The notes below the pieces were generated by a model. It did not search any database and was not told the origin of the DNA. It was given only the letters and a program-made list of their open reading frames with translations. A stretch of DNA of 64,000 nucleotides from Ideonella paludis (GTDB lineage: Bacteria > Pseudomonadota > Gammaproteobacteria > Burkholderiales > Burkholderiaceae_C), in the NCBI RefSeq assembly GCF_018069865.1, contig NZ_JAGQDG010000001.1, positions 868,001 through 932,000 on the forward strand, in the 5' to 3' direction. Position numbers and translations under genes: made by a program. Each line of letters begins with the position of its first letter. Position 1 is the first letter of the stretch. Below are positions 26,991 through 35,047 of this stretch, piece after piece.

Positions 26991-27014
26991 GGGGCCTTGA
27001 CAGGCCCCTTTTTT
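26991..27014 (+). terminator. Intrinsic terminator of the cytochrome c gene; loop equals a -35 box
   Basis: The stem GGGGCC / GGCCCC encloses the 6-nt loop TTGACA and is followed by six T residues. It lies 38 bp after the cytochrome c stop. The loop is at the same time a perfect -35 hexamer for the promoter of the next operon. Confidence 0.85.
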
Positions 27015-27043
27015 GTGCCCACAATACAAACCAACTAGTAGGT
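26997..27043 (+). promoter_or_regulatory. Promoter and operator O1 upstream of the SDR-FAD-cupin operon
   Basis: The -35 TTGACA (26997-27002), a 17-bp spacer and the -10 CACAAT (27020-27025) are followed after 4 bp by the operator ACCAACTAGTAGGT (27030-27043), which would cover the transcription start. The same arrangement occurs at O3 and O5. The leader to the SDR start is about 145 bp and contains a second operator, O2. Confidence 0.72.
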
Positions 27044-27137: not shown

Positions 27138-27151
27138 ACCTATTGATAGGT
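27138..27151. promoter_or_regulatory. Operator O2, ACCTATTGATAGGT
   Basis: A 14-bp near-palindrome 23 bp upstream of the SDR start codon and about 108 bp centre-to-centre from O1. No good promoter hexamers flank it, so it may be an auxiliary site for looping or a roadblock in the leader. Confidence 0.7.
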
Positions 27152-27174: not shown

Positions 27175-27843
27175 ATGAGTCAAGACAAAACCATCCTCAT
27201 CGCTGGCATGGCACCAGGGCTGGGCACCGCGCTGCAAGCCCGCTTCGAACAAGGCGGCTATTGCGTCGTCGGTGTGTCGCGGCAAGCACCGTCGCCATGG
27301 GCGGTCGACTTGACGGATGCGCTGGCGACACACGCCCTGTTCCAGCAGCTTGATGAGCGTTGCCCGCCGCTGGCAGGGGTGATCCACAACGCCATGCAGT
27401 TTCATCGCCAGGCGATGTTGGACACCACGCCCCAAACGCTGCAGTCGGTGTGGCAATCGATGGTGCTGACGGCCTTCAACACCGCGCAAGCGGCGATCCC
27501 TCGGCTGCAACGTGCGGGGGGCGGCAGCTTGATCTTCAGCGGTGCCTCGGGCAGCTTGCGGGCCGGTCCTCGATTTGCCGCATTCAGCTCGGCCAAGTTC
27601 GCGCTCAGAGGCTTGGCGCAAGCGTTGGCCCGAGAGCACAACCCGGACGGCATCCATGTGGCGCATGTGGTGATCGACGGCCTCATTCGCAGCAAAAAGA
27701 CCGAGCAGCGCTTCGCGCCCGGCCGAAGCGAGCCCTTGATCGAGCCCGATGCGCTGGCCGAGCAGTACTTCCAGCTGTTCCACCAGGCGCCAAGCGTCTG
27801 GAGCGACGAAGTGAATTTCCGCCCTGTGTTGACCTCCCACTGA
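27175..27843 (+). CDS. Short-chain dehydrogenase/reductase family protein with Phe at the catalytic Tyr position
   Basis: A 222-residue SDR. The N-terminal nucleotide-binding loop is GMAPGLG (residues 11-17) in place of TGxxxGIG, the N-(A/S)-G position reads IHNAMQ, and the catalytic region is FSGASGS then FSSAK. The usual active-site Tyr of YxxxK is Phe137, with Lys141 retained, so classical proton-relay chemistry is doubtful; I recall related SDRs with FxxxK. It is the first gene of the first operon of the ACCWAYTRRTAGGT regulon and is followed 11 bp later by an FAD oxidoreductase. Confidence 0.87.
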   Translation: MSQDKTILIAGMAPGLGTALQARFEQGGYCVVGVSRQAPSPWAVDLTDALATHALFQQLDERCPPLAGVIHNAMQFHRQAMLDTTPQTLQSVWQSMVLTAFNTAQAAIPRLQRAGGGSLIFSGASGSLRAGPRFAAFSSAKFALRGLAQALAREHNPDGIHVAHVVIDGLIRSKKTEQRFAPGRSEPLIEPDALAEQYFQLFHQAPSVWSDEVNFRPVLTSH

Positions 27844-27854
27844 AGGAGCGTGGT

Positions 27855-28982
27855 ATGTCTCTCCCTATCGTCATCATTGGTGCAGGCCTGAGTGGCCTGT
27901 ATGCCAGCACCTTGCTCAACCGTGCCGGCCACAGATCCGTCTTGGTCGAAGCTCGCCCACGCGCAGGGGGGCGCATCTTGAGCCACGTCGAAGCCGAGCA
28001 TGCCCAGCGCCTGGACCTTGGCCCAACTTGGTTTTGGCCGGGCATGAACCCGCGCATGCAAGCGCTGGTGGATGCGTTGGGGCTGGCCCACTACCCGCAG
28101 CACACCCAGGGTGCCATGACCCTGGAGGCGCCCGACGGCAAGGTTCTACATCGCCCGGTGACCTGGGAGCAATCTCCGCCCTCACACCGCCTGGTGGGTG
28201 GCATGCAATCGCTGACCGATGCATTGCAAGCCCGGCTGGGTGATCAGACGCACCTGATGCTCAACACCACACTGCTGTCCATGAAGCTCAGGCCCAACGG
28301 CGTGGAACTCGCGTTGCAGGACGGTGGCGGTCGTTGGACGCAATTGGCCACCCAGGTCATCGTGACCATTCCACCGCGCTTGATGGCCCAAGACATCGCG
28401 TTGACGCCGGCGTGGCCCAGCGAGACGCTTGCCGACATGACCGCGACGCCGACATGGATGGCGGGCCAGGCCAAGTTCGTCGCCGCCTACGCGCGACCCT
28501 TTTGGCGAGAGCAGGGTCAATCGGGCTCTGCCGTCAGCCACCGTGGCCCGCTTTCCGAGGTGCACGACGCCAGTGATGCGACCGGTGCCCACGCAGCCTT
28601 GTTTGGCTTTGTTGGCGCCACGCCCGACTATCGCCGTGGCATCGGCGTTGACGAACTGCGGCGGCTGAGCGTGCTCCAGCTGACCCGCCTCTTCGGTGAG
28701 GCCGCAGCCACGCCGCTGTGGACCCAGGTCCAAGACTGGGCCTGGGAGCCGCACACCGCAGCCCAGCAAGACCAGCGGCCTTTGGCCTATCACCCGGCTT
28801 ACCGAGACCCAGAGGTGCCTGAGGCTTGGCGGAAAAGCGTCTGGTTGGCCGGTACCGAGCGTTCCGCCCTGTTTGGCGGCTACCTGGAAGGGGCCTTGGA
28901 GGCTGCCGAAGCGGCCGTCGAAGGTGTGCTGCAGAACCTCTCCAGCACGTTCTCGCCACGCCCTCAGCAGCCGCTGGCATAG
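27855..28982 (+). CDS. FAD-dependent amine oxidase-family oxidoreductase
   Basis: A 375-residue flavoprotein of the monoamine oxidase / NAD(P)-binding Rossmann family. The FAD-binding motif IIGAGLSGLYAS is at residues 7-18, followed by VLVEARPRAGGRI; the C-terminal flavin motif is GTERSALFGGYLEGALEAAEAA. It lacks the cysteine used for covalent flavin in mammalian MAO. It would oxidise a small amine or related compound. The ATG at 27855 follows GAAGGAGCGTGGT. It is the second gene of the operon, between the SDR and the bicupin. Confidence 0.9.
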   Translation: MSLPIVIIGAGLSGLYASTLLNRAGHRSVLVEARPRAGGRILSHVEAEHAQRLDLGPTWFWPGMNPRMQALVDALGLAHYPQHTQGAMTLEAPDGKVLHRPVTWEQSPPSHRLVGGMQSLTDALQARLGDQTHLMLNTTLLSMKLRPNGVELALQDGGGRWTQLATQVIVTIPPRLMAQDIALTPAWPSETLADMTATPTWMAGQAKFVAAYARPFWREQGQSGSAVSHRGPLSEVHDASDATGAHAALFGFVGATPDYRRGIGVDELRRLSVLQLTRLFGEAAATPLWTQVQDWAWEPHTAAQQDQRPLAYHPAYRDPEVPEAWRKSVWLAGTERSALFGGYLEGALEAAEAAVEGVLQNLSSTFSPRPQQPLA

Positions 28983-28990
28983 GAGAGATC

Positions 28991-29677
28991 ATGAGGATTA
29001 ACGCAGATTTTGAGCAGCGCGCTGCGGTGCATGCCGCACAGGCCGCCTGGCTGCCTTCACCGATGGCTGGGGTGTCCCGACGCATGCTGCATCGCGAGGG
29101 CGAGGAAAAGGCTCGCGCCACCACCATCGTTCGCTATGAGGCCGGCAGCCACTTCAAGGGGCATTCGCACCCTGGGGGCGAAGAGTTTCTGGTGCTCGAA
29201 GGCACGTTTCAGGATGAGTACGGTGACTACCCTGCGGGCACCTATGTGCGCAACCCGCCGGGCAGCTTTCACACGCCCAGGTCCGATGAGGGCTGCACCC
29301 TCTTCGTCAAGCTCTGGCAATTCGATCCACACGACAGAACGCCGACTCAGGTCAACACGGAAAAGCTGGCGCGTGTGCCCGATGCGCGTCGGCCCGGTGT
29401 TGCGGTCTCGCCCTTGTTCAGGGATCGGCGAGAAGATGTGCGCATGGAAGTCTGGGCGGCTCACACCCTGATCCACCTGGATCTTCCCTTGGGCGGGGAG
29501 TTCCTCGTCCTCGAAGGAGGCTTCTCGGAGGGCTCGGAGATCTTCACGCCCCAGTCGTGGCTGAGGCTGCCCCGCGCCAGTGCGCTGACGGTTCGCACGG
29601 GCTCGCGCGGCACCAAGCTGTGGGTCAAGCTGGGCCAAGTGCTCGATGGGCCCGTCAACATCGAGGCTGGGCTGTGA
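28991..29677 (+). CDS. Bicupin, ChrR-like cupin domain protein
   Basis: A 228-residue protein with two cupin domains. The first has a full metal site: His58, His60, Glu64 (GHSHPGGEEFLVLEG) and His94 (GSFHTP). The second (about 130-220) repeats the fold (GGEFLVLEGGFSEGSEIFTPQSWLRLP) but lacks the histidines, so it is degenerate. The family is the ChrR-type cupin found in anti-sigma factors that respond to singlet oxygen and organic peroxides, but no zinc-binding anti-sigma domain is present. It may be a small dioxygenase or a sensor. It starts 8 bp after the FAD gene with an AGGAGAGATC ribosome-binding site. Confidence 0.85.
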   Translation: MRINADFEQRAAVHAAQAAWLPSPMAGVSRRMLHREGEEKARATTIVRYEAGSHFKGHSHPGGEEFLVLEGTFQDEYGDYPAGTYVRNPPGSFHTPRSDEGCTLFVKLWQFDPHDRTPTQVNTEKLARVPDARRPGVAVSPLFRDRREDVRMEVWAAHTLIHLDLPLGGEFLVLEGGFSEGSEIFTPQSWLRLPRASALTVRTGSRGTKLWVKLGQVLDGPVNIEAGL

Positions 29678-29737: not shown

Positions 29738-29784
29738 TTGACAAGCACAAAAGCTGCGCTCAAAATACCTACCAAGTGATAGGT
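29738..29784 (+). promoter_or_regulatory. Promoter and operator O3 upstream of the PfpI-EF-G operon
   Basis: The -35 TTGACA (29738-29743), a 17-bp spacer and the -10 CAAAAT (29761-29766) are followed after 4 bp by the operator ACCAAGTGATAGGT (29771-29784). Geometry is the same as at O1. Confidence 0.75.
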
Positions 29785-29848: not shown

Positions 29849-29877
29849 TTGACTTCATCACCTACCTATTAGTAGGT
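29849..29877 (+). promoter_or_regulatory. Second promoter region with operator O4
   Basis: The operator ACCTATTAGTAGGT (29864-29877) lies about 93 bp (centre to centre) downstream of O3 and 78 bp before the PfpI start codon. A -35-like TTGACT (29849-29854) precedes it, with a weak -10 overlapping the operator's right half, so it may mark a second, tightly repressed promoter. Confidence 0.65.
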
Positions 29878-29955: not shown

Positions 29956-30660
29956 ATGACTCCCACTGGCAACAAGCAAAAACGCGTTCTCTTGGTCATG
30001 TCGTCGGTTGACGAGATGGGCCTGAGCGGCAAGCAGACTGGCACGTGGTTCCACGAACTGGCGGCCCCCTATTACATCTTGACGGAAGCTGGCTATGAAG
30101 TCGTCTTCGCCTCACCCGAGGGCGGTGAAGCCCCGATCGACTTGCTCAGCCTGAAGGTGCCCTTCACCACCGAGTACACCGACCGCTTCTTGAAGGACCC
30201 GGTGGCGCTGTTTGCCGCCAAGCACACCCGCAAGCTGCGCAACATCGACGTCGAGACCTACGACGCCGTGTTCTTCCCTGGTGGCTACGGCCTGCTGTGG
30301 GACTTGGCCTCGGACTCCTTTGCCATCAAGCTGATTCGCGACTTCCATGCCGCCAACCGCCCGATCGCCATGGTCTGCCACGCACCGGCCATCCTGCGCG
30401 ATGTGAAGAAGGCCAATGGTGAGTACCTGGTCAAGGGTGTCAGCCTAACGGGCTTCAAGAACGACGAGGACACCGAGATCGAACTGCTGCACCACCTGCT
30501 GTTCTCGCTGGAAGACGAGCTCAAGGGCCGTGGTGCCAAGTACGTCAGCAAGGCGAACTGGGAAGCCAACGTCATCGTCGATGGCCCCTTGATGACCGGC
30601 CAGAGCCCCGCGTCTGCCGCCCCCTTGGCTCAAGCCTTGGCTGAGCGCCTGAAGGCCTGA
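29956..30660 (+). CDS. DJ-1/PfpI (Hsp31-like) family protein
   Basis: A 234-residue class I glutamine-amidotransferase-like protein. The nucleophile elbow is AMVCHAPAIL with Cys141-His142, and the conserved glutamate is probably Glu34 (WFHELAAPYYIL). Length and motifs fit the Hsp31-like / ThiJ-PfpI group, whose members detoxify methylglyoxal (glyoxalase III activity) or act as stress chaperones. The ATG follows GAAAGGACATTGAA. It is the first gene of the second regulated operon and precedes a cysteine-free EF-G, supporting a role in carbonyl or redox stress. Confidence 0.9.
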   Translation: MTPTGNKQKRVLLVMSSVDEMGLSGKQTGTWFHELAAPYYILTEAGYEVVFASPEGGEAPIDLLSLKVPFTTEYTDRFLKDPVALFAAKHTRKLRNIDVETYDAVFFPGGYGLLWDLASDSFAIKLIRDFHAANRPIAMVCHAPAILRDVKKANGEYLVKGVSLTGFKNDEDTEIELLHHLLFSLEDELKGRGAKYVSKANWEANVIVDGPLMTGQSPASAAPLAQALAERLKA

Positions 30661-30744
30661 TCGGCCGGCCCCGCCACCGGCGGCCCCAACCGGGCTGCGG
30701 GCGGCGGGGACTCCCCAACACCTTGACCCTGCTTGGAGACCTGC
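30661..30744. other. GC-rich spacer with extended hairpin between PfpI and EF-G genes
   Basis: CCCCGCC (30669-30675) can pair with GGCGGGG (30703-30709), enclosing an inner CCGG...CCGG stem. There is no T-run, so it is unlikely to be a full terminator; it could tune relative expression of the two genes. Confidence 0.4.
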
Positions 30745-32850
30745 ATGTCCCGCCCCACCCCGCTTGAGCGCACCCGCAACTTTGGCATCTCGGCGCACAT
30801 TGACGCTGGCAAGACCACGCTCACCGAGCGCATCTTGTTTTACACCGGCGTGAACCACAAGCTGGGCGAGGTGCACGACGGCGCCGCCACCATGGACTGG
30901 ATGCCCCAGGAGCAGGAGCGCGGGATCACCATCACCTCCGCAGCCACCACCACCACTTGGCGCGGCATGGACCTGTCGCAGCCCATTCACCAGTTCAACA
31001 TCATCGACACGCCCGGCCACGTGGACTTCACCATCGAGGTGGAGCGCTCCATGCGTGTGCTGGACGGCGCGGTCATGGTCTATGACGCGGTGGGTGGTGT
31101 GCAGCCGCAGTCTGAAACCGTGTGGCGCCAGGCTGAAAAATACAAAGTCCCTCGCATCGCCTTCGTCAACAAGATGGATCGCGTGGGCGCCGACTTCTTT
31201 CGGGTGCGCCAGATGATGGTCGAGCGCCTGAAGGCCAACCCCGTGCCGCTGGTACTGCCGCTAGGCGCCGAAGACAACTTTCAGGGCGTGATCGACCTGG
31301 TGCGCATGAAGGCCCTCTATTGGGACGATGCCGACCAAGGCAGCCGCGTGCGCGAAGAGGAGGTTCCTGCGGCGGCCCTCGAGGCCGCCCTGCTGTGGCG
31401 CGAACACCTGGTGGAGGCAGCGGCTGAGGCGAGCGATGCGCTGATGCACCGCTTCTTGGACAGTGGCGCCCTGAGCGAGGACGAGATCCGCCAGGGTCTG
31501 CGAGCCCGCACCCTGGCGGGTGAGGTGCAGCCGCTCCTGGCCGGATCGGCCTTCAAAAACAAAGGCGTGCAGCGCCTGCTCGATGCGGTCATCGAGTTTC
31601 TGCCCTCGCCGCTGGACATTGGCGCGGTGCAGGGCTTGGACGAGCAGGCGCAGCCGAGTGCTCGACGCCCTGACGACGCCGAGCCCCTGGCGGCCTTGGC
31701 CTTCAAGCTCATGAGCGACCCCTATGTGGGCCAGCTCAGCTTTGTGCGCGTCTATGCCGGCGTGCTGCGCCAGGGCGACACGGTCTTGAACCCGCGCACC
31801 GGCCGGCGCGAGCGTGTGGGCCGCTTGGTGCGCATGCATGCCAACCAACGCGAAGACATCACTGCGCTGTATGCCGGTGACATCGCAGCCGTGGTGGGCC
31901 TCAAAGAAGTGGCCACCGGGGACACGCTCAGCGACCCCAGCCGCCCCATTCTTCTGGAGCAAATCCAGGTGCCCGACCCCGTCATCTCTCAGGCCGTGGA
32001 GCCCAAGAGCCGTGCAGACCAAGAGAAGCTGGGCATGGCGCTGGCCCGCTTGGCGGCGGAAGACCCGTCGCTGCGGGTGCGCACTGATGCGGAGTCAGGC
32101 CAAACCTTGATCGCAGGCATGGGCGAGCTGCACCTTGAGATTGTGATGGACCGGCTGAGCCGTGAGTTCGGCGTGGAGGCTCGCGTTGGCGCCCCCCAGG
32201 TGGCCTATCGAGAAACCATCCGCCACACTGCCAAGGATGTGGAGGGCCGCTTTGTGCGGCAGTCGGGCGGCAAAGGCCAATACGGCCATGTCGTGCTGAC
32301 CGTGGAGCCCCTGCCGCCGGGCAGCGGCGTGACCTTTGTCGACGCGAGCAAGGGCGGTGTGGTGCCCCGCGAATTCATCCCGGCCGTTGAAAAGGGCGTG
32401 CGCGAAGCCTTGCCTCAAGGCGTGTTGGCGGGTTACCCCGTCGTGGACGTGAAGGTCACCCTGACCTTTGGCTCCTCTCACGAGGTGGACTCCAGCGAGC
32501 AAGCCTTCAAGATGGCGGCAGCCCTGGGCCTCAAAGAAGCCCTGCGGCGAGCAGACCCGGTGCTGCTGGAGCCGCGCATGGCGGTGGAGGTGGAGACCCC
32601 CGAAGACTACGCGGGCGCGGTGATGGGCGACCTGGCGCGTCGGCGTGGCCAGGTGCAGGGCTTGGACGAGCAAGCCGCGGGCCTGGGCAAGCTGATTCGC
32701 GCGGAGGTGCCGCTGTCGGAAATGTTTGGCTATGCCACCACGCTGCGTTCGCTCACGCAGGGCCGTGCCAGCTATGCCATGAGCTTCGACCACTACGCGG
32801 CTGTGCCCTCGGGGGTGGCCCAGGCGGTGCACACCGCTGCGCTGCACTGA
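30745..32850 (+). CDS. fusA2: Elongation factor G paralogue, entirely lacking cysteine
   Basis: A 701-residue translational GTPase, full EF-G length. G1 is AHIDAGKT (17-24), the switch I region is [15 protein letters not shown]3 is DTPGHVDF and G4 is NKMD; domains II to V follow ([22 protein letters not shown]). It lacks any cysteine: at the positions I recall as E. coli Cys114, Cys266 and Cys398, it has Asp114 (VYDAVGG), Ala264 (AGSAFKNKG) and Ser394 (GDTLSDP). Start ATG at 30745 follows TTGGAGACC. It is not in a str operon but downstream of a PfpI gene within a TetR-controlled operon, so it is a secondary, stress-linked EF-G; EF-G activity itself is inferred from intact motifs. Confidence 0.93.
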
Positions 32851-32873: not shown

Positions 32874-33869
32874 ATGACATCGCGCATCACTCGACACATT
32901 CCGCTGTCCTTCTTCAGCATGGCCGTGGGCACCTTGGCCTTCTCGCAGGCTTGGCAAGCCGCGTCAACGGTCTGGCCCATGCCGCCGTGGATCCCTCAGG
33001 CGGCCACCCTCATCGGTCTGGCGCTGTGGGCCGTCCTGGGGCTGGCCTACCTGCGCAAGTGGTGGCATCAGCCTCTGGCCGCCCAAGAGGAGCTGCACCA
33101 CCCCACCCAGTCCGCGATGGCGGCCTTGGTGCCCGTCTCCACGCTGCTGGCGGCGATGTCGCTCCAGCCTTGGTGGTTCGAGCTGGCGCACGCCCTGTGG
33201 CTGCTGGGCCTGGGTGCACAACTGTGGCTGGGTGTCTGGCTGGGGGGCCGTTTGTGGCAAGGCGGGAGAGCTGCCAGCCCCACCACGGCCGCGCTTTACC
33301 TACCGGCCGTCGCCCAGAACTTTGTCGCTGCCACGGCCTCGGCCAGCTTTGGCCACGCCGCACTCGCGGCACTGTTCTTCGGTGCGGGGGTGTTCTCGTG
33401 GCTGGCGCTGGAGTCGGTGATCCTGCATCGCACCATGCACCAGCCTGCGCTGGACAAAGCCTTGCGCCCCTTGCAGGGCATCCAAGCCGCGCCGGCTGCC
33501 GTGGGCGGGGTGAGCTACCTGGCCTTGACGGCGGGCCCGCCAGACCTGCTGGCTCAGATGCTCTTCGGATATGCCCTCTATCAAGCCGGGCTGGCGCTGC
33601 GTCAGCTGCCATGGACCGCCCAGTCCGGGCTGACGCCGGCCTACTGGGCCTTCAGCTTCGGCGTGATGGCCCTGGCCACGATGAGCATGAGCTTTCTCGC
33701 GCGGGCTCCCCAAGAGCCCGTCTGGCAAGCCCTGGCCCCGCTGCTGTTTGCGGCGGCCAACCTCAGTTGGATGGCCCTGGTGGCCCTCACGGTGACCCTG
33801 CTGCGGCAGGGGCGCCTGTGGCCCACCACCGGCCCCCTCAGCACCGAGCAGTGGGTTGGCTCTCGGTGA
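32874..33869 (+). CDS. TDT-family transporter (TehA/SLAC1-like)
   Basis: A 331-residue inner-membrane protein with about ten hydrophobic segments. The N-terminus HIPLSFFSMAVGTLAFSQAW is characteristic of TehA-type tellurite-resistance/dicarboxylate transporters, relatives of SLAC1 anion channels. It would export anions or weak acids; tellurite itself is only one possibility. The ATG follows CCGGAGGTCCGCACC, 23 bp after the EF-G stop, so it is co-transcribed with it. Confidence 0.87.
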   Translation: MTSRITRHIPLSFFSMAVGTLAFSQAWQAASTVWPMPPWIPQAATLIGLALWAVLGLAYLRKWWHQPLAAQEELHHPTQSAMAALVPVSTLLAAMSLQPWWFELAHALWLLGLGAQLWLGVWLGGRLWQGGRAASPTTAALYLPAVAQNFVAATASASFGHAALAALFFGAGVFSWLALESVILHRTMHQPALDKALRPLQGIQAAPAAVGGVSYLALTAGPPDLLAQMLFGYALYQAGLALRQLPWTAQSGLTPAYWAFSFGVMALATMSMSFLARAPQEPVWQALAPLLFAAANLSWMALVALTVTLLRQGRLWPTTGPLSTEQWVGSR

Positions 33870-33907: not shown

Positions 33908-34369
33908 ATGTCCCTCACTACCTTCATCCGTGCCGTCGCCGTGGCCACACTCGCAGTGGCCGCCTGGTTCAACCCTACAGGGGCCAGCGCCGCGCCGTCG
34001 GCCTCGCCCATGATCGTCACCCCATACGAGTCGCTGAGCTTCTCGGCCAAGCAGCCCGGCAATCCGCAGATCGCACCCGTGAAGGGCCAGCCCGAACGCG
34101 AGGCCTCGTCCATCGTCATGAAGATGGGCCGAGGCGCCTTCCCCATGCACACGCACACGGCCAACTACCAATTGGTCGTCATCAAGGGCGTGATGAAGCA
34201 CTGGGACGCCAAAGGCAGCCAAAAGGCCGCCCCCAAGATGGGCCCCGGCAGCTTCTGGTACCAGCCGGCGGGCCTTGCCCACGGCGACGCCTGCGAGTCC
34301 GATGAGTGCGTGTGGTTCATCACCTTTGATGGCCCGCGTGACTTTGAGGCGGCGGCCTCTGCTCAATGA
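33908..34369 (+). CDS. Exported cupin domain protein
   Basis: A 153-residue protein with a Sec signal (AVAVATLAVAAWFNPTGASAA) and one cupin domain. The metal-type motif is FPMHTHTANYQLVVIKG and the second is LAHGDACESDECVWFITF. It is probably a periplasmic metal-binding enzyme or binding protein. The ATG follows TAGGAGAAACAC. Last gene of the PfpI-EF-G-TehA operon; the TetR gene follows with its own promoter. Confidence 0.83.
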   Translation: MSLTTFIRAVAVATLAVAAWFNPTGASAAPSASPMIVTPYESLSFSAKQPGNPQIAPVKGQPEREASSIVMKMGRGAFPMHTHTANYQLVVIKGVMKHWDAKGSQKAAPKMGPGSFWYQPAGLAHGDACESDECVWFITFDGPRDFEAAASAQ

Positions 34370-34393: not shown

Positions 34394-34442
34394 TTGACGG
34401 CGCGGGTACTGCTCCGCAGAATCTCTCTAACAACTGATAGGT
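34394..34442 (+). promoter_or_regulatory. Promoter and operator O5 upstream of the TetR gene
   Basis: The -35 TTGACG (34394-34399), a 17-bp spacer and the -10 CAGAAT (34417-34422) are followed after 6 bp by AACAACTGATAGGT (34429-34442). The same layout as O1 and O3 implies autoregulation by the TetR protein encoded at 34463. Confidence 0.75.
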
Positions 34443-34462: not shown

Positions 34463-35047
34463 ATGAAGCAATTTTCCGACCTCACCCCCTCCGCCGAGCG
34501 CATCGTTGATGCCGCCGAAGGCCTCATTCAAACCTTGGGCTACAACGGCTTTTCATACGAGGACGTGGCCAAGATCGTGGGCATTCGCAAGCCCAGCATC
34601 CACCACCACTTCCCGTCCAAGATGGAGTTGGGGGCGGTGGTGGCGCAACGCTACACCCACCGATTCCGCGAGGCGCTGCTGCATGTAGAAGGCACGGTGA
34701 GCAAAGCGCCGGCGCGCTTGCGCGCCTATGCCGATCTCTTCGAAGCGACTTATGAGAAAAGCCGCCGCCTCTGCATTTGCGGCATGCTGGGCGCTGAGGC
34801 CGACTCCTTGCCCCAAGAAATCACTGCTCAAGTCAAACGCTTTTTCAGCGTGAACTTGGAATGGCTGACCACGGTGTTTGCCGAGGGCATGGCAGAAGGC
34901 AGCCTGAAAAGCGGCCACAGTGCAGCCGAATTGGCGGAGGCGTTCATGTGCACGCTCGAAGGTGCCTTGGTGGTCGGGCGCGGCTGGCCCCAAGCCCATG
35001 GCCCGCGTCGGTCGGCGGAAGTGCTGCTGGCGGCACTGGCCCCTTGA
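34463..35047 (+). CDS. TetR-family regulator, probable repressor of the O1-O5 regulon
   Basis: A 194-residue TetR protein. The helix-turn-helix is about residues 10-60 (IVDAAEGLIQTLGYNGFSYEDVAKIVGIRKPSIHHHFPSK). The ligand domain has a C-x-C pair at Cys104 and Cys106 (RRLCICGMLGAE); Cys106 has the same number as the sensing cysteine of E. coli NemR, which may be coincidence. I chose the ATG at 34463; the more upstream TTG at 34394 coincides with the -35 box. With an operator in its own promoter and four more in front of the two operons upstream, it is the natural local regulator. A redox or electrophile signal is inferred, not shown. Confidence 0.88.
   Translation: MKQFSDLTPSAERIVDAAEGLIQTLGYNGFSYEDVAKIVGIRKPSIHHHFPSKMELGAVVAQRYTHRFREALLHVEGTVSKAPARLRAYADLFEATYEKSRRLCICGMLGAEADSLPQEITAQVKRFFSVNLEWLTTVFAEGMAEGSLKSGHSAAELAEAFMCTLEGALVVGRGWPQAHGPRRSAEVLLAALAP

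Follow-up and report, generated by a model that had tools for sequence, protein, structure and literature searches.

A cysteine-free elongation factor G in a PfpI/TetR gene module of Ideonella paludis, and the distribution of redox cysteines among str and non-str EF-Gs

Elongation factor G (EF-G) is a known point at which oxidants slow bacterial protein synthesis. A survey describes it as the most duplicated bacterial translational GTPase (PMC4342817). A stretch of 64,000 nucleotides from Ideonella paludis (contig NZ_JAGQDG010000001.1, positions 868,001 to 932,000; hereafter the window) encodes an EF-G without cysteine amid the genes of a stress-type operon with a TetR regulator, which raises the question of what such a protein would be for and whether the loss of its cysteines is tied to the operon around it. 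The original prediction was that of a stress-induced, oxidation-resistant EF-G that replaces a damaged housekeeping copy.

Translation of the gene gave 701 amino acids and no Cys, as had been claimed, and a Pfam scan of the ORF identified the EF-G domains. With 1078.3 bits against the NCBIfam model TIGR00484 (cut-off 659.4) the protein classifies as a bacterial EF-G (EFG I). It stayed below the cut-offs of the models for EF-G2 (NF009377, 530.5 vs. 890), for tetracycline ribosomal protection proteins (NF012153, 381.5 vs. 775) and for Bacteroides EF-G2 (NF058620, 475.6 vs. 1000), the last of which points to a different subfamily. The gene does not adjoin rpsG and tuf in the manner of a housekeeping EF-G gene, pfpI being found upstream instead; as a second EFG I copy outside str, it belongs with the accessory EF-Gs of the EF-G1B type. 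Among 331 columns that are near-invariant (at least 99%) in 98 other EF-Gs, 306 are kept and 25 differ, and all of these 25 lie outside the five GTPase motifs and both domain IV loops, which agrees with the earlier statement that the motifs are intact; loop II of domain IV carries a Ser where the genome's own str-encoded EF-G has a Tyr. In domain III, the Pro-x-Pro and GMGELHL stretches, which we take to have a role in drug binding, are kept, and residue 409 beside Pro-x-Pro is changed. The protein sits on a very long branch and its composition is odd. No ortholog was found among 299 family, 16 genus, 399 order, 399 relatives and 369 class genomes, sets which overlap and in which the large searches scored 2 or 3 candidates per genome; the best non-self match reached 74%.

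The genome (4.8 Mb in 22 contigs) encodes a second EF-G beside rpsG and tuf on another contig (G000:C18:233983), which places the window gene outside the str operon, as proposed. The two proteins are 71.4% identical. Alignment with this housekeeping copy, which had been suggested as a check, revealed seven Cys residues in the str protein at positions 70, 110, 114, 266, 383, 396 and 600 (window numbering), where the window protein has T70, V110, D114, A266, V383, S396 and L600; the housekeeping EF-G is therefore not equally devoid of Cys, and an organism-wide avoidance of the residue is ruled out. When residues were matched by alignment to the E. coli EF-G from the PDB, Asp114 stood opposite Cys114, as originally stated, while the numbers of the two other residues named at the time, Ala264 and Ser394, had to be corrected, Ala266 and Ser396 being the residues opposite Cys266 and Cys398. 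The alignment shows that the known redox switch is absent from the window EF-G.

Compared with the str protein, many Lys, Ile, Asn and Met residues have been exchanged and most Ala, Gly, Pro and Arg are retained, a pattern of GC drift. Cys has no AT-rich codons, and its loss is not explained by drift of this kind; at six of the seven lost positions the present codon is two or three changes away from a Cys codon. Loss of Met as a defence against oxidation was considered and dropped, since it fits the drift pattern. The chance of losing all seven Cys residues, calculated post hoc as a product of conservation-matched change rates, is 6e-5, and without positions 110 and 114 it is ~2e-3 (likewise post hoc), the latter being the fairer figure because losses at these two positions are common to most non-str relatives. 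An index of codon use built from str genes gave 0.60 for the window EF-G and 0.74 for the str EF-G; the codon use of the former lies between that of the operon's other genes and that of the str copy.

The genes around the EF-G gene all read in the same direction, in the order SDR, amine oxidase, ChrR-type cupin, pfpI, EF-G, TehA/SLAC1-type transporter, small cupin and tetR (Table 1). The EF-G gene directly follows the DJ-1/PfpI gene, as had been noted, at a distance of 84 bp, and the transporter gene begins 23 bp after it. Between pfpI and the EF-G gene, at 30661-30710, there is a GC-rich inverted repeat without a T run which may be an attenuating or processing hairpin. The regulator possesses a TetR_N domain (39.2 bits, gathering score 24); its identification as the acrylate regulator AcuR was rejected, NF051457 giving 54.4 against a cut-off of 247, and it is regarded as a relative of AcuR. 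The cupin Cup1 scored 33.4 bits with the ChrR anti-sigma model TIGR02451, below the cut-off of 124.5.

Table 1. Genes and candidate regulatory sites around the accessory EF-G gene (positions in the window).
Feature	Position	Strand	Remarks
Sigma-70-like promoter, SDR unit	26997..27025	+	TTGACA-17-CACAAT; consensus match only
TetR-type palindrome ACCAACTAGTAGGT before SDR gene	27030..27043		palindrome scan
TetR-type palindrome ACCTATTGATAGGT before SDR gene	27138..27151		palindrome scan
Short-chain dehydrogenase (SDR)	27175..27843	+	2 Cys
Flavin-containing amine oxidase family protein	27855..28982	+	0 Cys
ChrR-type cupin protein (Cup1)	28991..29677	+	1 Cys
Sigma-70-like promoter, pfpI-EF-G unit	29738..29766	+	TTGACA-17-CAAAAT; consensus match only
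Weaker palindrome ACCTACCAAGTGATAGGT	29767..29784	+	directly 3' of the -10 hexamer of the pfpI-EF-G promoter
Strong TetR-type palindrome ACCTATTAGTAGGT before pfpI	29864..29877		palindrome scan
DJ-1/PfpI family protein	29956..30660	+	one Cys (MVCHAPA)
Accessory EF-G	30745..32850	+	701 aa, 0 Cys; GGAGA ahead of ATG
TehA/SLAC1-type transporter	32874..33869	+	0 Cys; TehA-like by family, just under the model's cut-off
Small cupin protein (Cup2)	33908..34369	+	2 Cys
Operator-like site AACAACTGATAGGT before tetR	34429..34442		one base from ACCAACTGATAGGT of relatives; under scan threshold
TetR-family regulator	34463..35047	+	Cys104 and Cys106

Palindromes of the type ACCTATNNATAGGT have three strong occurrences in the 64 kb (27030, 27138 and 29864), all before the SDR gene or pfpI, compared with 0.35 per shuffle in a control of 20 crude two-base shuffles. 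The SDR gene, pfpI and tetR each have a sigma-70-like promoter upstream, with palindromic or operator-like sites directly after it. This excess, together with promoters that run into the palindromes, supports the predicted presence of TetR-type operators, which we regard as probable.

We then compared 171 distinct EF-Gs, mostly from Burkholderiales, of which 104 are encoded in str and 67 outside it (non-str). They came from loci of the genome searches, from second copies in part of the two-copy genomes of the family sample, and from plasmid or megaplasmid copies of Klebsiella, Pantoea and Cupriavidus. Kept apart from this set were two copies of the ~55% kind described below that have an in-frame stop (G139 and G197); the class loci, namely five str copies with Cys114 and two gammaproteobacterial copies at contig ends (L178 and L179) with Cys114 and no str neighbor found; the P. 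chlororaphis and A. baumannii str copies (Cys114); and PDB chains. Cys114 and Cys266, which we take to be the oxidation-sensitive pair of E. coli EF-G, occur together in 100 of the 104 str copies and in none of the 67 non-str copies. The str proteins have 4 to 9 Cys each, with Cys114 in 100/104 and Cys266 in 104/104; Cys114 is absent from all 67 non-str proteins, 14 of which are Cys-free. Non-str EF-Gs of a ~70% kind (46, window included) invariably have Asp114 and contain 0 to 6 Cys, six of them being Cys-free, and in the ~55% kind, with 21 members, Asp114 occurs in all 21 and Ala266 in 20, eight members being Cys-free. The latter (L322-L341 and L140), an EF-G kind of ~55% identity in the same bacterial family, score as EF-G.

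Besides the window protein, the Cys-free EF-Gs are that of genome G484, four that form one clade (L302, L304, L305 and L306) and the eight of the ~55% kind, and the neighborhoods fetched for these 13 contained no match to other module genes. The loss of Cys is therefore an accessory EF-G trait that the operon did not make. The tie between Cys loss and the PfpI operon, as implied by the original prediction, did not hold: unlinked non-str EF-Gs also lack Cys114 (67/67) and can be wholly Cys-free (14/67), so that, judged from these sequences, what we see is largely a general trait of accessory EF-Gs. That Cys-freedom might be unique to the PfpI-linked copy was ruled out by the second EF-Gs of two-copy family genomes.

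Several individual copies deserve description. In G484 the Cys-free EF-G gene lies beside a divergent TetR gene, and a nitroreductase gene follows (L162:4134-8117); the gap between the TetR and EF-G genes contains two similar stretches, CGTTACAAAAATAAAT and CGTTACATAAATAAAT. A Klebsiella pneumoniae plasmid record (L185:8002-10104) and a Pantoea plasmid (L187:5971-8067) encode non-str EF-Gs with Asp114 and 4 Cys. Among PDB chains, 4fn5 (EF-G 1), like the P. chlororaphis str EF-G, has Cys at both 114 and 266. The chain 6n0i (EF-G 2), presumably from P. putida, has Ser and Leu there; it resembles the window EF-G in this respect but keeps other Cys residues, unlike the window copy, which is wholly Cys-free and encoded in a TetR/PfpI operon. 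Four str copies have Asp114 (L015, L018, L096 and L123), of which L015 and L018 fall inside an accessory clade and L096 and L123 do not; it is as though the str gene of the first two had been replaced by an accessory one.

In trees built without the Cys columns, Cys-freedom in the ~70% kind corresponded to three changes and D114 to four or five. Because state changes on the trees are few, the association is strong in count and has few independent origins, and independent-pairs tests had too few pairs for significance.

A PfpI search of named genomes identified 43 loci (L042-L084) ranging from Comamonadaceae to Rhizobiales, Rhodobacterales, Pseudomonas and Bacteroidota. Genes for TetR were present in 30 of them, SDR in 28, amine oxidase in 35, ChrR cupin in 32 and the transporter in 10, and TetR, SDR, amine oxidase and ChrR cupin occurred together in 23/43. 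Palindromes similar to those of the window were found within 240 bp before pfpI at 21 loci. None of the 43 contained an EF-G gene in the stretches of 6.5 to 14.7 kb that were covered, which disposes of an orthologous EF-G traveling with the module. At L058, L060 and L061 the transporter gene directly follows pfpI; the window EF-G gene thus lies between two genes that can adjoin elsewhere. At two of these loci (L043:10946-12319 and L082:11387-12760) the ChrR cupin gene is separated from the transporter gene by one for a protein of 457 residues, which gave weak matches to TPR and has 1 and 0 Cys, respectively. In the 15 other genomes of the genus, PfpI was detected at E <= 1e-40 in two, with 45% and 39% identity, and PfpIs of other families reach 92%; on these grounds the PfpI/TetR module of the window looks acquired.

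The cysteine content of the module proteins provided a new observation: the module enzymes are Cys-poor while the module TetR keeps a Cys-x-Cys pair. At the 43 loci, with ORFs predicted by a simple GC-based gene caller and counted over their full length, the amine oxidase has 0.19 Cys per 100 aa (13/32 Cys-free), the SDR 0.39 (10/25), the PfpI 0.51 (0/40, with the motif AMVCHAP in 34/40), the ChrR cupin 0.58 (7/20) and the transporter 0.66 (1/8). Other ORFs of >150 aa at the same loci have 1.17 Cys per 100 aa, and 8% of these 252 are Cys-free. A density test gave p 9e-22, a descriptive value only, as related proteins were treated as independent. PF01593 proteins of the genus outside the module have 1.03 Cys per 100 aa in 30 rows, one of which (L247) is the window's own amine oxidase as an overlong ORF, and none of the 29 others is Cys-free; PF00106 proteins of this genome outside the module have 1.07 (21 rows, 2 Cys-free). 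The small cupin Cup2, with 1.44 Cys per 100 aa in five homologues, is not Cys-poor. In the window, the EF-G, the amine oxidase and the transporter each have no Cys. The module TetR has 1.29 Cys per 100 aa, and Cys104-x-Cys106 is kept in all 30 rows, window included. We read the module as a regulon that probably meets thiol-reactive chemistry.

Our preferred explanation, to which we assign a probability of about 0.45, is that a stress operon, Cys-poor and probably thiol-sensing, captured an accessory EF-G that lacked the redox switch, and that this EF-G shed its remaining Cys to become an oxidation-insensitive backup translocase. The protein would be a working translocase with neither the Cys114/Cys266 switch nor any other Cys, its gene having presumably been taken up into a mobile module of stress type under TetR control, at a point between pfpI and the transporter gene. 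Through Cys104-x-Cys106, TetR would release its operators upon oxidation or alkylation of thiols, the operon would then be expressed, EF-G included, and the Cys-free EF-G would carry elongation at a time when disulfide formation or alkylation slows the str copy. The Cys114/Cys266 disulfide cannot arise in an EF-G with Asp114; therefore oxidants could act as a brake on the str EF-G but not, by this route, on the accessory one, and the loss of all other Cys may protect the window protein from electrophiles as well. The signal sensed, the induction, the translocase activity and the benefit under stress are what we infer here. The original idea of an oxidation-resistant EF-G in a stress operon thus survives in a broadened form: the lack of Cys, the missing switch and the PfpI/TetR operon speak for it, and the part that made the Cys loss specific to the operon does not stand. 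Counting against our explanation are the Cys loss in accessory EF-Gs unlinked to the module, the lack of EF-G at the other 43 module loci, the long branch, the odd composition, the less str-like codon use, a Cup2 that is not Cys-poor and a sample drawn mostly from Burkholderiales.

Known systems offer partial parallels. Zinc-independent ribosomal protein paralogues that lack cysteines are induced by zinc shortage. They resemble the window EF-G in being stress-controlled paralogues of translation parts without cysteines, the control in the window being presumed; in their case the zinc site is the reason for the Cys loss, whereas EF-G has no zinc site. The Bacteroides EF-G2 is a regulated alternative second EF-G; the likeness lies in regulation of a second copy, and the difference in subfamily, as the window protein falls under the NF058620 cut-off. 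A Cys-less E. coli EF-G made in the laboratory is reported to have D114, A266 and S398; our literature search found no match for this design. According to the review PMC8141631, oxidation joins two conserved cysteines of EF-G in a disulfide, which lowers GTPase activity, and Cys-to-Ser mutants resist oxidation with no significant loss of activity (Kojima 2009; Nagano 2015; via PMC8141631). Both conserved cysteines are removed in these mutants as in the window EF-G, but the mutants are laboratory-made, whereas the window protein is natural, has Asp and Ala instead and has lost all other Cys too.

The module resembles the RpoE-ChrR singlet-oxygen regulon (PMC5507510), with which it has SDR, flavin-containing amine oxidase and ChrR-type cupin in common at the family level; the window set differs in having TetR and PfpI, and its cupin scores 33 bits where the ChrR cut-off is 124.5. 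A study of chlorite dismutase neighborhoods connects reactive chlorine stress with cupins and SDRs (PMC9751292). A literature search that covered few subscription journals found no report of a Cys-free EF-G, of redox cysteines in accessory EF-Gs or of a str/non-str cysteine split.

The rival with the best standing, possible yet somewhat doubtful, is that accessory EF-Gs are specialized in another way, through a division of translocation and ribosome recycling or for ribosomes in a particular state, that their Cys were lost as unneeded and that the stress operon only regulates. Cys loss across non-str EF-Gs in mixed neighborhoods fits this, as does the case of P. aeruginosa, whose EF-G1A and EF-G1B differ in how they respond to fusidic acid, in recycling and in poly(U) translation (PMC3832671). 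EF-G1B, like the 6n0i protein, is a full EF-G outside str beside a str copy. The same source gives the str EF-G1A as 75-fold less active in vitro than EF-G1B, and a search of its text yielded no mention of cysteine, oxidation or stress; one idea is that the low activity came from oxidation of the switch-bearing str copy during preparation. Specialization of this kind does not account well for a redox pair that is lost without exception in 67 non-str copies, nor for the position of the window gene in an operon that is poor in Cys but whose regulator retains it.

That the gene is a decaying duplicate drifting without function is unlikely. Its very long branch, its shifted composition and the failure to find an ortholog (best other match 74%, from 2 or 3 candidates per genome in the large searches) would suit decay, but it is full-length without a stop, retains 306 of the 331 near-invariant columns and all motifs, and has a ribosome-binding site and tight operon spacing. 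Slightly less credible still is sulfur sparing, in which the window copy would replace a sulfur-rich EF-G when sulfur is scarce: its 0 Cys are accompanied by 21 Met, below all 98 other aligned EF-Gs (minimum 25), but this Met loss goes along with losses of Ile, Lys and Asn in the GC-drift pattern, the Cys-free G484 copy has 31 Met, and no sulfur-starvation genes were found among the neighbors annotated by domain and family scans. Bypass of an antibiotic acting on EF-G is the most improbable reading, as the transporter gene and the fusidic acid response of second EF-Gs, which can differ (PMC3832671), are set against scanned neighbors without any antibiotic biosynthesis or resistance family and a domain III that keeps Pro-x-Pro and GMGELHL, though with residue 409 changed.

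Returning to the backup translocase, we regard the str/non-str cysteine rule as a more interesting result than the single window operon. The presence in many bacteria of a second EF-G gene outside str has mostly gone unexplained, and the split in the redox pair (100/104 vs. 0/67) offers a simple and testable reason: spare EF-Gs without the oxidant-sensitive pair may sustain protein synthesis under oxidative or electrophile stress. We tentatively suggest, at lower confidence than for the window protein itself, that proteobacterial accessory EF-Gs are a recurrent backup elongation system defined by the missing Cys114/Cys266 switch, in which the housekeeping EF-G would be a brake applied by oxidants and the accessory EF-G would keep stress proteins being made, here within a regulon nearly purged of enzyme Cys and with the sensor alone keeping a Cys pair. 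The window protein, as a natural Cys-free EF-G, is suited to testing the idea of the redox pair. If true, a general rule is suggested, whereby stress regulons may rid their enzymes of Cys while the sensor retains it.
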